From: Trichormus sp. M33_DOE_039
GTDB lineage: Bacteria > Cyanobacteriota > Cyanobacteriia > Cyanobacteriales > Nostocaceae
Assembly: GCA_015296085.1 (NCBI GenBank)
Contig: DVDT01000047.1
Coordinates: 1-64,000 of the forward strand
Length of the DNA stretch: 64,000 bases
Direction: 5' to 3'
In this document: positions 1,326 to 34,690 of the stretch, in pieces
How positions within the stretch are numbered: position 1 is the stretch's first letter
How the letters are laid out: each line of letters begins with the position of its first letter
Made by a program: the position numbers and the translations under genes
Notes under the pieces: generated by a model
What the model was told of the DNA's origin: nothing
The model's database searches: none
Seen by the model: only the letters and a program-made list of their open reading frames with translations

Positions 1326-2867
1326 ATGACTGAAGTGACTCTTCCCGCTTTAATTGAGCAAATGTTACGACCAGAGTTCTATCCCCATCCTGTACAAGAA
1401 CCGATTCAACTCATTCAAACCCACGTTTCTTATGTGTTGCTGACTGGTGACTATGCCTATAAATTGAAAAAACCAGTGAATTTTGGTTTTTTAGATTTTT
1501 CCACCTTAGAGAAACGACAGCATTTTTGCCAGGAAGAACTGCGCTTAAATCAACGGGGAGCAGGCGAATTGTATTTGGAAGTGTTACCCATAACTTTGCA
1601 GGGTGAGCAGTACATTTTAGGGGGAACGGATGAGTCTGTAGAATACACAGTCAAAATGCGTCAGTTTCCTCAAGATACTCTACTTAGTTCATTGTTTGCA
1701 GAGGGTAAGTTAAACGAAGCCCATTTAGAAGAATTAGGACGGGTAGTAGCTCAATATCACGTCAAAACCGAGACAAATGATTACATTCGTAGTTTTGGGG
1801 AAGTAGCTCAAGTTAGAGCCGCATTTGATGAAAATTACGAACAAACCGAAAAATATATCGGTGGCCCTCAAACTCAGGCGCAATTTGACGAAACAAAAGC
1901 TTACACTGACAGTTTCTTTGCTGAAAGACAAGAGTTATTTCAACGCCGCATCCAAAATGACTATATTCGGGAGTGTCATGGCGACTTACATTTGAGAAAT
2001 ATTTGTCTGTGGCAAGATAAAATTTTGCTGTTCGATTGTATTGAGTTTAATGAACCGTTTCGCTTTGTGGATGTAATGTTTGATGTTGCTTATGCGGTGA
2101 TGGATTTGGAAGCACAGCAACGTCCTGATTTGAGTAACGCTTATCTTAATACTTATGTAGAGCAGACTGGCGATTGGGAAGGATTAGAGGTATTACCGAT
2201 CTATTTAAATCGTCAATCCTACGTTAGAGCGAAGGTAACATCATTTTTGTTAGATGACCCCAGTGTACCTGCGGAAGTTAAAGCAGAAGCCAGCAAAACC
2301 GCAGCACAATACTACAAACTCGCTTGGGAATACACTCAACCCAAACAAGGAAAACTGATTTTAATGTCGGGTTTATCTGGTTCTGGAAAGAGTACAACAG
2401 CCAAATATTTAGCACGACACACCGGAGCAATTCACATTCGTTCTGATGCAGTTAGAAAACATTTAGGGGGAATTCCTCTGTATGAGCGAGGAAGCGATGA
2501 TTTATATACCCCAGAAATGACACAAAAAACTTATGCCCGGTTATTAAATTTGGGGATTATACTAGCTAATCAAGGTTACACCGTGATTTTAGATGCTAAG
2601 TATGATAAACAAGAACTGAGACAAGAAGCGATCGCCCAAGCTCAAAAACACCAACTACCTCTGCAAATTATTTACTGCACAGCCCCCTTAGAAGTAGTGC
2701 AAGAACGTCTTGTCAAACGTACTGGTGATATCGCTGATGCGACAGTAGATTTATTAGCTTCGCAACTCAAGCAAACAGAATCCTTTACTGATACAGAAAA
2801 ACCCTACGTACAAATTTGGGATACAACTCAACCGCCGCAAACACAATTACCAAAAGTCATTCACTAA
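1326..2867 (+). CDS. Bifunctional phosphotransferase-like / P-loop kinase fusion protein
   Basis: A 513-residue two-domain protein. The N-terminal two thirds resemble the aminoglycoside/choline phosphotransferase (APH) fold, with a Brenner-type catalytic loop HGDLHLRN at 218-225 and the metal-binding Asp237 in LLFDCIEF. The C-terminal part is a P-loop kinase with Walker A GLSGSGKST at 349-357 and DAVRKHLGG shortly after, like zeta-toxin/gluconate-kinase-like small-molecule kinases. This APH-plus-kinase fusion is known in diverse bacteria, generally annotated as an AAA family ATPase; its substrate is unknown. Resistance to aminoglycosides should not be assumed. No operon partner is evident. 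The start ATG at 1326 lacks a strong Shine-Dalgarno sequence. Confidence 0.8.
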   Translation: MTEVTLPALIEQMLRPEFYPHPVQEPIQLIQTHVSYVLLTGDYAYKLKKPVNFGFLDFSTLEKRQHFCQEELRLNQRGAGELYLEVLPITLQGEQYILGGTDESVEYTVKMRQFPQDTLLSSLFAEGKLNEAHLEELGRVVAQYHVKTETNDYIRSFGEVAQVRAAFDENYEQTEKYIGGPQTQAQFDETKAYTDSFFAERQELFQRRIQNDYIRECHGDLHLRNICLWQDKILLFDCIEFNEPFRFVDVMFDVAYAVMDLEAQQRPDLSNAYLNTYVEQTGDWEGLEVLPIYLNRQSYVRAKVTSFLLDDPSVPAEVKAEASKTAAQYYKLAWEYTQPKQGKLILMSGLSGSGKSTTAKYLARHTGAIHIRSDAVRKHLGGIPLYERGSDDLYTPEMTQKTYARLLNLGIILANQGYTVILDAKYDKQELRQEAIAQAQKHQLPLQIIYCTAPLEVVQERLVKRTGDIADATVDLLASQLKQTESFTDTEKPYVQIWDTTQPPQTQLPKVIH

Positions 2868-30973: not shown

Positions 30974-31217
30974 GAATTTCTTTTGAGTGGTTCAGTAGTC
31001 ATTTTGACTTTAAATTAAATATTTGTGGTTCTTACTTGTGGTAGAAAATTTGTAATATTTATTTTTTCCACGCAGAGATATAAAAACACAGAGATGGCAG
31101 GAAACAGGAGTTATTTGAGGTAATTAAAATTAGTATTTATTTTCGGGTTGAGCTATTAAGTCGATGTTATTAAGTAAGGTAAGACTTAAATATATTTCGG
31201 CTGAAAATTGAGGTCAA

Positions 31218-32945
31218 ATGATATACGAAAAGCTATCTCCTGGACTGTTGTTGGCTTGGGATGATTTTCAACGGGAAGGTGAGTTAGCATTAATTACACA
31301 TAGGCGATCGCTTGGTATTCTTCCTCCTAAAAGTGTAATTAAACCTACTAAAAGTGTAGTTTTTATTTATTGCGAACCTGATACAAATTTAAGTCATCTT
31401 TCACAATATGGTATTGAAATCAATCAGAGTTTTGGTGGTATACGGACGGCTTTTTTACCTTTAGATAGGTTAGAAATATTAGCAGAAGAAACTGCCATCC
31501 AACGTATTAAGCCATCACGTAAGCTGAAAATTAAAATGGATGTTGCACCCCAAGTTATGAAATTACCCAGTTTCGTTAACAGAACTGGACTAACTGGAAA
31601 AGGTGTAGTTATCGGCATTATAGACACAGGGATTGATGCCAAACATCCTGCTTTTGCTGGGCGAATTTTACGCATTTGGGATCAAACTCTCCCAGGCCCA
31701 GGGGTGAATGAAGGGCTTTACGGTGCGGAATTTACAGGGGAACAGCTTTGTATTTCTCAAGACATGGAAGGTCATGGAACTCACGTTGCGGGAATTGCGG
31801 CGGGTGCTGATGCGGTCTACAGTGGTGTTGCACCAGAGGCGGAATTAGTAATTATCAAGTCCGATTTACAGGATGCTCACATTGCTGATGCTATCCGTTA
31901 CGTGTTTCGGGTAGCTGGTGAGTTGGGACGACCTGCTGTAGTTAATCTTAGTGTCGGTGGTCACGCCGATGCTCATGATGGCAGTGATTCTCTGTCGCAA
32001 ATCATCAATGCTGAGTCTGGGGTGGGTAAAATTGTTTGCTGTGCGGCTGGGAATGAAGGCAACGATAACATTCATGGTCAAGCTAATATCCCCAGTGGAC
32101 GCAGCCGGGGGATGCGCTTCAATGTCCCTCTCAATCAAATGGGGATGGTCTGGTTAAATGCTTGGTATCAGAATTCTGGTCAATTAGAAGTTTCGGTGCG
32201 GAGTCCTAATGATTTTGTCACTCCTTACCAAAAAATCATGACTAGTGGTAATCCTTCTCAAAGCTACGATTTACCAGATTCCCAAGTAGAATTGGTAACA
32301 CCAGATCGCGACCCCTCCAATGGTGATTATCATTTCTTTGTGCAGATTCGCGGTAGGGGTAGATCCCTTGTGCAAGGTGGTATTTGGCAATTACGAGTTC
32401 GTAACACTTCAACATCAGACACCAGACTTGATGTGTGGACACTAGATGACACATTATCGGTGTATTTTACTGGTAAAAGTGTCAAAGATGCCGTAAAAAT
32501 AGGTTCTCCTGCTTGCGCTAGCAGTGCAGTGACAGTGGCAGCTTACACAACTAAAGTCAAATATGAAGATATCGATCGCCAAGTCCGTGAGATGGGTTTA
32601 GAATTAAACACTATTTCCGAATTTAGTAGTGAAGGGCCACTCAGGAATAATGCTCAAAAGCCAGATATAGCCGCACCTGGGGCAATGATTGTGTCTGCAC
32701 TGTCTAGTAATTTTAATAGCGATCGCTCCATGACAATTAATTCGCAGTTTGTCGCCATGTCTGGAACAAGTATGGCAGCACCTTTTGTCACCGGATTAAT
32801 CGCCTTACTATTACAACGTGACCCCAACTTAGACCCCACTACAGTCAAAGAACTCCTCCGCCAAAATAGTTCCATCCCCGGTAAACCCACAGGAACTTTT
32901 GATCACAAATGGGGATTTGGATTGATTAATACGGACAAGTTGTAA
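31218..32945 (+). CDS. S8 family subtilisin-like serine peptidase
   Basis: A 575-residue subtilase. The triad is intact: Asp136 (IIDTGID), His186 (GHGTHVAG) and Ser518 (GTSMAAP), with the oxyanion Asn279 (AAGNEGN). A large insert (about 290-430) separates Asn and Ser. The first 110 residues precede the catalytic domain and look like an I9/propeptide-type module (SVVFIYCEP; GIRTAFLPLDRLEILAEE). There is no signal peptide, so it is probably intracellular or exported by another route. The small gene 56 bases downstream encodes a stand-alone homologue of this N-terminal module. Start ATG 31218. Confidence 0.92.
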   Translation: MIYEKLSPGLLLAWDDFQREGELALITHRRSLGILPPKSVIKPTKSVVFIYCEPDTNLSHLSQYGIEINQSFGGIRTAFLPLDRLEILAEETAIQRIKPSRKLKIKMDVAPQVMKLPSFVNRTGLTGKGVVIGIIDTGIDAKHPAFAGRILRIWDQTLPGPGVNEGLYGAEFTGEQLCISQDMEGHGTHVAGIAAGADAVYSGVAPEAELVIIKSDLQDAHIADAIRYVFRVAGELGRPAVVNLSVGGHADAHDGSDSLSQIINAESGVGKIVCCAAGNEGNDNIHGQANIPSGRSRGMRFNVPLNQMGMVWLNAWYQNSGQLEVSVRSPNDFVTPYQKIMTSGNPSQSYDLPDSQVELVTPDRDPSNGDYHFFVQIRGRGRSLVQGGIWQLRVRNTSTSDTRLDVWTLDDTLSVYFTGKSVKDAVKIGSPACASSAVTVAAYTTKVKYEDIDRQVREMGLELNTISEFSSEGPLRNNAQKPDIAAPGAMIVSALSSNFNSDRSMTINSQFVAMSGTSMAAPFVTGLIALLLQRDPNLDPTTVKELLRQNSSIPGKPTGTFDHKWGFGLINTDKL

Positions 32946-33001
32946 CTTCGTTGGAAGTCGGAAATTAATTATTCCCTCACTATTCCCTTCTCCCAGTCCC
33001 C

Positions 33002-33295
33002 ATGAACTATCAAAAGCTGGATGCTAGTTTGGTTTTAGCACTGAATGAGGTGTTAGAGCCAGATTTAGTAAGTTTAGTTGTATTTGTCTATACGGAGCAA
33101 CCCTTAAGTAATGTGGCGGCAGCGGTGTTAAGGAATCTGGGTGTGGGTGGTGTTAGTAGTGAAAAGGATGTATTTACAGCGACGCTATCACTAGCGCAAA
33201 TTGCCCATTTATCAGACCAACCTTGGGTGAAATTGATCAAGCGATCGCAACATCTGCGTTTTCTTAATTTGGGCAGTGACATACATCACTATTAG
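33002..33295 (+). CDS. Stand-alone propeptide-like protein, homologous to the N-terminus of the adjacent subtilase
   Basis: A 97-residue protein without signal peptide. Its order of elements parallels residues 1-105 of the upstream peptidase: MNYQKLDASLVLAL against MIYEKLSPGLLLAW, SLVVFVYTE against SVVFIYCE, and ATLSLAQIAHLSDQPWVKLIKRS against AFLPLDRLEILAEETAIQRIKPS. The pattern (strand, helix, strand, helix, strand) suits an inhibitor I9/subtilisin-propeptide fold. Free I9 proteins in other organisms inhibit or help fold subtilases in trans. I infer the same here; it follows the peptidase by 56 bases on the same strand and is probably co-transcribed. ATG 33002. Confidence 0.7.
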   Translation: MNYQKLDASLVLALNEVLEPDLVSLVVFVYTEQPLSNVAAAVLRNLGVGGVSSEKDVFTATLSLAQIAHLSDQPWVKLIKRSQHLRFLNLGSDIHHY

Positions 33296-33345
33296 TTTTT
33301 GGGAAAATTCCTGCAAGATAATCTTTGATCCCCCCTTACCAGCTG

Positions 33346-33372
33346 CCACATACAGTCCTAAACTGTAGGTGG
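33346..33372 (+). promoter_or_regulatory. Hairpin in the glgC leader
   Basis: CCAC-A-TACAGT and ACTGTA-G-GTGG fold into a stem with one A-G mismatch around a CCTAA-type loop, 28 bases before the glgC start. It could influence translation or terminate the upstream transcript weakly; no T-run follows. Confidence 0.4.
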
Positions 33373-33400
33373 GAATCAAAAGGCAGTCGGGAGACATCTT

Positions 33401-34690
33401 GTGAAAAAAGTATTAGCAATTATCCTTGGAGGTGGTGCGGGTACTCGCCTGTACCCCCTCACCAAACTACGTGCTAAACCGGCAGTACCAGTAGCAGGGA
33501 AGTACCGCCTAATAGATATCCCTGTTAGTAACTGCATTAATTCAGAAATTTTTAAAATCTACGTTCTCACACAATTTAACTCAGCGTCCCTTAACCGTCA
33601 CATCGCTCGCACCTATAACTTTAGCGGCTTTAGTGAAGGCTTTGTGGAGGTGCTTGCAGCCCAACAAACACCAGAAAACCCCAACTGGTTTCAAGGGACT
33701 GCTGATGCTGTACGCCAGTATATATGGCTGTTGGAAGAATGGGATGTAGACGAGTACCTGATTTTGTCAGGTGATCACCTCTACCGCATGGATTACCGCC
33801 TATTTGTACAACGCCATCGGGAAACAAATGCCGATATTACCCTTTCGGTGATCCCCATAGACGATCGCCGTGCTTCAGATTTCGGTTTAATGAAAATTGA
33901 TCAGTCTGGGCGGGTAATTGACTTTAGTGAGAAACCCAAAGGCGAAGCTTTAGCGCAAATGCGAGTTGACACCACAGTTTTGGGATTGAGTCCAGAACAA
34001 GCTGCTCAACAGCCATACATCGCCTCAATGGGGATTTACGTATTTAAAAAAGATGTTTTGATCAAACTTTTGAAAGAAGCTTTAGAACGGACTGATTTTG
34101 GCAAAGAAATTATTCCTGATGCCGCAAAAGATTACAATGTTCAAGCTTATTTATTTGATGACTACTGGGAAGATATTGGAACGATAGAAGCCTTTTATAA
34201 TGCCAATTTAGCCCTGACACAACAGCCCCTACCACCGTTTAGTTTCTACGATGAAGAAGCCCCAATTTACACCCGTCCTCGTTATTTGCCGCCCACCAAG
34301 CTTTTAGACTGTCATGTGACAGAGTCCATTATTGGTGAAGGCTGCATTCTAAAAAACTGCCGCATTCAACACTCAGTTTTAGGAGTGCGATCGCGCATTG
34401 AATCTGGCTGTATCATCGAAGAATCTCTGCTCATGGGTTCTGACTTTTATCAACCTTCTGTAGAACGCCAGTGCAGCATAGATAAAGGTGATATCCCTGT
34501 AGGCATAGGCCCAGATACCATCATTCGCCGTGCCATCATCGATAAAAACGCCCGCATTGGTCACGATGTCAAAATTATCAATAAAGACAACGTGCAGGAA
34601 GCCAACCGCGAAAGTCAAGGTTTTTACATCCGTAGTGGGATTGTAGTTGTCCTGAAAAATGCTGTGATTCCTGATGGAACAATTATCTAG
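33401..34690 (+). CDS. glgC: Glucose-1-phosphate adenylyltransferase (ADP-glucose pyrophosphorylase)
   Basis: A 429-residue enzyme making ADP-glucose from ATP and glucose-1-phosphate, the committed step of glycogen synthesis and allosterically activated by 3-phosphoglycerate in cyanobacteria. The nucleotide loop [20 protein letters not shown], the catalytic [12 protein letters not shown] segment and the [19 protein letters not shown]-terminus, which holds an activator-binding Lys, are all typical. Start GTG at 33401. A short leader hairpin precedes it. The gene is full length. Confidence 0.97.

Follow-up and report, generated by a model that had tools for sequence, protein, structure and literature searches.

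A free propeptide-like protein encoded beside a Csp-like subtilase in cyanobacteria: a candidate trans-acting inhibitor

Small proteins that resemble subtilase propeptides and are encoded by genes of their own are described as inhibitors of subtilases. The stand-alone I9-type examples given in one report (POIA1, the yeast proteinase B inhibitor, SPI-1 of Arabidopsis, TgMIC5 and SUB1-ProM of Plasmodium) are all eukaryotic (PMC6993865). SUB1-ProM, a natural stand-alone propeptide-like protein, inhibits SUB1, and three well-characterised I9 members are stated in the same source to be without significant sequence similarity to propeptides; such inhibitors are viewed there as possible products of convergent evolution (PMC6993865). 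A stand-alone inhibitor of the I9 or propeptide type from bacteria was not found in the open-access literature. For the bacterial subtilase CspB, the corresponding paper describes a propeptide that stays bound, inhibits the enzyme and also works when supplied in trans (PMC3567191). Given in this way it folds and blocks CspB, blocking depends on positions P3-P1, and the P1 residue is Ser96 (PMC3567191).

In the window, i.e. the entire stretch of 64,000 nucleotides of Trichormus DNA that was analysed, a subtilase gene is followed by a small gene whose product resembles the propeptide of that subtilase (Table 1). The two open reading frames lie where the original prediction had placed them, on one strand and with 56 bases between them. 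M1 of the small protein is invariant in 23 of 23 aligned family members which, together with its own reading frame, points to a separate small gene product; we refer to it as the free protein. A consensus scan of positions 32800-33500 revealed no promoter- or terminator-like site between the two genes, and a conserved leader found in many relatives (see below) is absent here. Co-transcription of the subtilase and the free gene is therefore likely in the window. By eye, GAGGT precedes the subtilase (31205-31217) and no Shine-Dalgarno-like stretch is seen ahead of the free gene (32985-33001); AAGGA is present ahead of the free gene in several relatives that carry the leader.

Table 1. Positions of the gene pair, its parts, and leader and relic sequences in relatives (window coordinates unless a locus is named)
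Feature	Position	Strand	Remark
Csp-like subtilase, 575 aa	31218..32945	+	Pfam, CspB and Foldseek matches; crude hydropathy
Subtilase N-terminal propeptide, residues 1-106, in-cis homologue of the free protein	31218..31535	+	end inferred
Putative mature enzyme, starting at invariant M107, with Csp-type inserted domain	31536..32942	+	
Intergenic gap between subtilase and free gene, 56 nt	32946..33001	+	
Free propeptide-like protein, 97 aa, predicted I9-type fold	33002..33295	+	
Conserved C-terminal tail of the free protein, residues 79-88, IKRSQHLRFL	33236..33265	+	alignment
Leader examples	L110:3410-3525; L113:4082-4197; L057:5489-5604	-; +; +	
Leader-like remnant, G028	L210 about 1984-2033	-	
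Leader-like remnant, G029	L209 about 2297-2385	-	
Probable free-gene relic, G019	L241 (G019:C453) about 2506-2704		stop-ridden; each piece alone weak

Judged by sequence comparison, the free protein and the subtilase propeptide share one origin. BLASTP with the two window proteins only aligned residues 1-86 of the free protein with residues 1-104 of the subtilase (29/107 identical, E 6e-4). Comparison of 23 free proteins with 25 propeptides by hhalign gave a probability of 97.8 and an E-value of 1e-12 over 86 columns, and alignment of the free-family profile with that of the whole subtilase was confined to the N-terminal 108 columns. A six-frame search of 386 cyanobacterial genomes with the free-family profile, in which at most 13 candidates per genome were scored, returned 20 matches at E<=0.001 among these candidates; 15 of them were free genes, and the other five were propeptides of the same subtilase (E 3.5e-7 to 1.2e-4). 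BLASTP, hhalign and the profile search thus rule out a chance likeness and bear out the predicted similarity of the 97-residue product to the N-terminus of the peptidase. That similarity had been traced by eye along the whole length of the product; the homology does extend over 86 columns, with gaps, and the propeptide contains an insert of 21 residues. Free and in-cis modules fall into two clans with 100/100 support in an unrooted tree in which three long branches were flagged. The two clans imply one split and no repeated copying, and a separate duplication in each strain is thereby ruled out. We infer that the free protein arose from the propeptide by duplication.

PF05922 (Pfam Inhibitor_I9) matched neither the free protein nor the subtilase, nor any other part of the genome at E<=0.1, and searching solved structures by sequence brought up nothing credible for either the free family or the propeptide taken alone. 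PHROGs and PADLOC had no match to the free protein. Two further matches were set aside, namely that of the free protein to Pfam TmoB (17.6 bits versus a cut-off of 25, over 34 residues) and that of the N-terminal part of the subtilase to Imm10 (13.2 bits versus a cut-off of 28.6).

Residues kept invariant or nearly so in both families include M1, K5, L6, L10 and a VFI strand, and further along G47/G65, T59/T77, A60/A78, L70/L88 and S71/S89 (free protein/propeptide). S82 of the free protein (23/23) and S100 of the propeptide (25/25) are likewise invariant; position 85 is Leu in 22 of 23 free proteins, and L103 of the propeptide is Leu in 19 and Met in 6 of 25. None of the 23 free proteins has the 21-residue insert (propeptide residues 26-46). 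W75, invariant among the free proteins, is not so in the propeptide. Residues 79-88 of the free protein align with propeptide residues 97-106, the SQxLxL tail being in register with positions 100-105. Past this tail the propeptide keeps M107 (25/25), D108 (23/25) and A110 (25/25). None of the three is kept in the free proteins, which mostly have Asn in the M107 column and end 0-22 residues beyond position 88. The residue equivalent to P1 is R in 18, S in 3 and K in 2 of 25 propeptides; it is variable in the free proteins (V 9, L 6, R 2; n=23). The tenth residue of the solved mature CspB chain aligns with residue 116 of the subtilase. If that chain starts at the cut, as we assume from its length, the autoprocessing cut of the subtilase would map near 106/107. 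With the register taken from CspB in this manner, the free protein resembles a propeptide whose end falls close to the expected autoprocessing site, and its tail would enter the active-site cleft of the enzyme.

The subtilase matches Pfam PF00082 (S8) at 1.6e-48. Among proteins of solved structure, its sequence is nearest to that of Tk-SP (best 2.1e-36, in pieces) and that of CspB (4i0w; 2e-31 over residues 116-549). In a Foldseek search with the model of the mature enzyme, whose quality is modest, ranks 1-11 were all Csp chains, and these align across the inserted domain that precedes the Ser motif. Residues D136, H186, N279 and S518, whose roles we presume from subtilisin motifs, are invariant in 25 of 25 orthologues, all of which also keep their own propeptide in the alignment. 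Its sequence thus characterises the enzyme as a Csp-like subtilase with a conserved triad that stands outside the NCBIfam families CspBA (122.9 of 1250 bits) and CspC (81.9 of 675 bits). The assumption of an intracellular protease is in line with a simple hydropathy scan, admittedly a crude one, that found no strongly hydrophobic (signal-like) segment in either window protein. Three PHROGs matches were obtained for the enzyme, the best being phrog_3677 'protease' (8e-52). A distant relative with 32% identity is located in another part of the class, inside an 1866-aa open frame (G252:C1:18005-19366 (-); L108); the free-profile search gave no free-gene match among the candidates scored in that genome, and the relative was not counted as an orthologue.

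The AlphaFold (AF2) model of the free protein (pLDDT 79.3, pTM 0.67) has the order helix-strand-helix-strand-helix-strand, followed by an unstructured tail (residues 85-91). Its Foldseek matches in the PDB at ranks 1-14 are chains of subtilase entries, among them Tk-SP, pro-subtilisin E, the BPN' propeptide, the PC1/3 propeptide and PCSK9, and also 'PAM protease' and 'ProteinT protease', which we take to be subtilases; from rank 15 onward the matches are mixed. None of the E-values is below 0.001, the best being 0.022, and TMq with Tk-SP is 0.61. At the level of prediction, the propeptide-like fold originally proposed is thus supported, and the model displays the fold feature of stand-alone I9 inhibitors, i.e. 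alternating strands and helices of the propeptide type. The complex was modelled as a single chain from G001, where the two genes are in frame (mean pLDDT 69, pTM 0.59). Several catalytic stretches of this model fall below pLDDT 50, and it yielded no readable contacts. Per core block, the free part reaches 82-96 in the complex model and 77-91 alone, values obtained with different sequences and alignments.

Occurrence of the free gene is tightly coupled to that of the subtilase. Among 59 relatives, 25 possess a subtilase orthologue and 23 of these the free gene, which is present in none of the other 34. The corresponding figures for 386 genomes of the phylum, based on the candidates scored, are 16 with the orthologue, 15 of these with the free gene, and 0 of the other 370. 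The two sets overlap; in their union, the free gene accompanies the subtilase in 32 of 34 genomes and is never present without the orthologue. The two subtilase-only genomes are G011, where the free gene was not found at a relaxed threshold and the only match (E 0.68) lies in a 284-aa frame, and G013, where the only match, also at a relaxed threshold, is the propeptide of its subtilase. Eight of the 32 genomes with both genes (G009, G014, G016, G032, G033, G038, G134 and G372) have them separated, either by at least 38 kb on one contig or on different contigs; the distance is less certain for G038, whose subtilase is at a contig edge.

A single short peptide pattern, applied to a collection of named genomes, retrieved 77 loci of which 76 contain true free genes. 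The remaining one, L196 (Limisphaerales), was dismissed as a chance match (33% over 77 residues, no match at 1e-10). Most of the 76 loci are labelled Nostoc, Calothrix, Scytonema, Tolypothrix or related genera, which we take to be heterocyst formers; other labels are Richelia intracellularis (a symbiont), a few Coleofasciculus, Symplocastrum and unnamed cyanobacteria. In the Richelia intracellularis locus L190, subtilase, free gene and glgC are kept together. In 58 of the 76 loci the subtilase precedes the free gene on the same strand, no more than about 6 kb away. These loci, along with the 32 of 34 genomes mentioned above, bear on the conservation in relatives for which the original prediction had suggested to look, and support a conserved pairing. 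Seventeen of the remaining 18 genomes were searched (L169 was left out), and an orthologue with 63-78% identity was detected in 15 of them. It was not found in G422 (L133), which has only a 31% relative, and in G427 (L156); both are MAGs in which the free gene lies 387 and 775 bases, respectively, from a contig end.

Taken together, these distributions show that the free gene is evolutionarily dependent on this subtilase. The argument is carried by the separated pairs and by the lack of any free gene without the protease in two genome sets. Since the pair is mostly adjacent, one deletion can remove both genes in the absence of a functional tie, and joint loss alone is weak evidence. A glgC tree built with 30 relatives out of the 59 requires at least eight changes of state for the subtilase and nine for the free gene. 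In 200 pairings of eight independent pairs, the free gene followed the subtilase in a mean of 7.4 (6-8) and never went the opposite way; the sign test on independent pairs gave a median p of 0.016 (range 0.0078-0.031) on this tree of a gene that itself neighbours the pair and whose history may differ from that of the species.

Closely related strains differ in whether they have the pair at its one fixed place beside glgC. For example, G008 keeps the pair and G003 is without it, and G000 keeps the pair that G010 and G012 are without; such strains form natural pairs with and without the two genes. In G003, G007, G010, G012 and G028 a glycosidase gene, which flanks the pair in several other strains, is located within about 1.2 kb of glgC, and tblastn detected no trace of the pair in the interval between these two genes; the missing pair is most simply explained by loss. 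Leader-like remnants are present upstream of glgC in G028 (E 5.5e-6) and G029 (E 5.6e-7), where both genes are absent. G019 has no subtilase orthologue. Just upstream of its glgC, two weak pieces lie end to end that resemble the later part of the free protein, carry stops and differ in frame. The first matches the free profile at E 1.08; in tblastn, three of the 23 free proteins hit the second (E 0.003-0.005; 4.3-kb locus, 48 queries). Going by these alignments, the pieces are probably a decayed relic of the free gene.

Expression of the free gene may in many strains be under a control of its own. In 69 out of 99 distinct loci the free gene is preceded by a conserved leader of about 110 nt (E<1e-10, extending to model position 80 or beyond); at E<=1 it is detected in 82 loci, with no match in 17, by a model that was built from 14 of the 99. 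It is absent from the window and from five relatives of the same genus that have the free gene. At the eight separated free genes, the leader is strong in G014, G016, G033 and G372 (three of which are in the model) and partial in G134, whereas G009, G032 and G038 yielded no match. After the eight separated subtilases, only a 25-base leader-like piece was seen, in G033 (L075; E 0.0054). The leader therefore goes with the free gene. Among the 59 relatives there are 12 leader matches at E<1e-11 (8 of the 12 in the model), each located 14-132 bases upstream of a free gene. Four of 18 weaker matches (E<=0.01) were inspected; those of G031 and G034 lie upstream of the free gene, and those of G028 and G029 are the ones upstream of glgC.

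The leader ends, a short way ahead of the start codon, in a hairpin with a run of T's after it. Double-sided changes occur in 8 of 9 base pairs of this hairpin (24 cells versus a shuffled mean of 11.6), with 85.4% of the cells paired. A search of 11 leader-bearing loci with Rfam at the gathering score found nothing at the leader, the only matches being tRNA and a CRISPR repeat; the CRISPR direct-repeat match (RF01356) at L110:8689-8712 (-) is about 5 kb away from the free gene of G415. By its sequence, the leader hairpin resembles a terminator ahead of a start codon, and that the leader works by attenuation is our guess.

In six genomes of the same genus, dN/dS amounts to 0.13-0.64 for the free gene (14 of 15 pairs, one being saturated), 0.06-0.35 for the propeptide (14 of 15 pairs) and 0.07-0.13 for the rest of the enzyme (15 of 15 pairs), with several dS values above 1 that make single ratios rough. 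The free gene is constrained, yet it evolves faster than its supposed target. The range of 0.13-0.64 rules out that the free frame is non-coding or decaying in the genus of the window.

We propose, with a probability of roughly 0.65, that the free protein is a trans-acting inhibitor of the neighbouring subtilase. As a stand-alone, pre-cut propeptide it would dock in trans onto the mature enzyme, at the site vacated by the built-in propeptide, and the SQxLxL tail, ending about at P1, would lie product-like in the substrate cleft. Bound in this way, it would keep the protease inactive or return it to the inactive state. A separate gene would allow the amount of free protein to be set independently of the enzyme, for which the own leader in many relatives outside the genus of the window suggests a regulatory role, and taking the free protein away would free the protease from this restraint. 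Several observations weaken this proposal. G011 and G013 keep the subtilase alone, and a brake is thus not always needed; conversely, G422 and G427 have a free gene and an orthologue was not found. The missing 21-residue insert might be part of the interface, and the P1-equivalents differ between the two families, so that the free tail may bind differently. An alternative that we consider unlikely is that the free protein acts primarily as a folding chaperone in trans, supplementing the subtilase's own propeptide, with inhibition being secondary. The free protein is the same module as the propeptide, and according to the CspB study the propeptide of that enzyme, supplied in trans, restores its folding (PMC3567191). 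However, the built-in propeptide is retained in all 25 cyanobacterial orthologues that were aligned, two of 34 genomes manage without the free protein, and the latter is devoid of the 21-residue insert. Moreover, if the free protein were needed in step with synthesis of the enzyme, its gene would not be expected to have a leader of its own as often as it does.

Somewhat less likely again is a toxin-antitoxin-like or defence pair, with the protease as an effector that is harmful or directed against phage and the free protein as the antidote to it. Such a role would fit the patchy distribution of the pair among closely related strains at the fixed place beside glgC, and also the match of the generic 'subtilase' model of PADLOC to the enzyme (4.5e-35). 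Yet the best stretch of this match and of the weaker ones to IetS is the common S8 part, the NCBIfam anti-phage peptidase model scores 28.2 bits versus a cut-off of 900, and PADLOC is silent on the free protein. The genes flanking the pair, which we named from their sequence, look like housekeeping genes, and G011 and G013 (2/34) would keep an effector without its antidote. Of the original idea of a duplicated propeptide turned into an inhibitor or chaperone in trans, common descent, a propeptide-like predicted fold and conserved pairing with an enzyme that has a conserved triad are thus supported; an inhibitory or chaperoning role is a proposal, and an enzyme/antidote pair in the strict toxin-antitoxin sense is weakened. 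The least likely of the alternatives is that the free protein has a different partner, such as another subtilase of the cell, or itself serves as a substrate adaptor, and that the linkage reflects inherited ancestry. A first subtilase search yielded 14 candidates in the genome of the window, hence other S8-like targets may exist, and the unconserved P1-equivalent as well as W75, invariant in the free family and not in the propeptide, are compatible with a different target. Against this stand the two genome sets in which free genes occur only with this orthologue, linked or not, its presence in 15 of 17 further named genomes, and the probable free-gene relic in G019, where the orthologue is gone.

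If the free protein is indeed an inhibitor, it is tempting to speculate further, if only tentatively, that cyanobacteria, most of them heterocyst formers, restrain a Csp-type subtilase in trans by means of a detachable propeptide under separate control, and that signals switch the protease by way of the leader that many of them have or of the stability of this brake; it would then be the first bacterial case found in the open-access literature. The link between a built-in propeptide and a free protein can be followed here through a single split with dozens of descendants, through joint presence and absence that recur among strains, and through the probable relic left where the target is gone. 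The pair also offers a handle on the role of a Csp-like protease in cyanobacteria, because deleting one gene would take away the supposed brake. It is a natural experiment, too, on what becomes of a propeptide once it is relieved of folding duty.

Comparison with the described systems reveals both shared and distinct features. Like the stand-alone I9 inhibitors, the free protein is small, comes from a gene of its own and has a propeptide-type fold, predicted in its case, and SUB1-ProM is likewise encoded beside subtilase genes (PMC6993865). Inhibition is reported for the listed I9 inhibitors, whereas the cyanobacterial protein is known here from its sequence, and the Pfam I9 model does not recognise it. 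Csp proteins, with CspB among the best relatives in sequence, are the best relatives of the subtilase in structure, and the alignment spans the inserted domain. The clostridial Csp germination proteases, however, are spore proteins, and the CspB propeptide supplied in trans was an experimental construct (PMC3567191), whereas the cyanobacterial partner is a natural separate gene. PopC and PopD of Myxococcus are alike in that a signal-less bacterial subtilase is complexed with another protein, which undergoes degradation when the cells starve; PopD is described as blocking secretion of PopC (PMC6434023), and we set it beside the free protein by that description only. Stand-alone propeptide-like inhibitors as such are already known. 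In contrast to the I9 members that lack significant similarity to propeptides, the likeness of the free protein to the propeptide of its neighbour is plain in the sequence and, if our reading is true, what is new is a bacterial inhibitor with visible kinship to the propeptide of its target.
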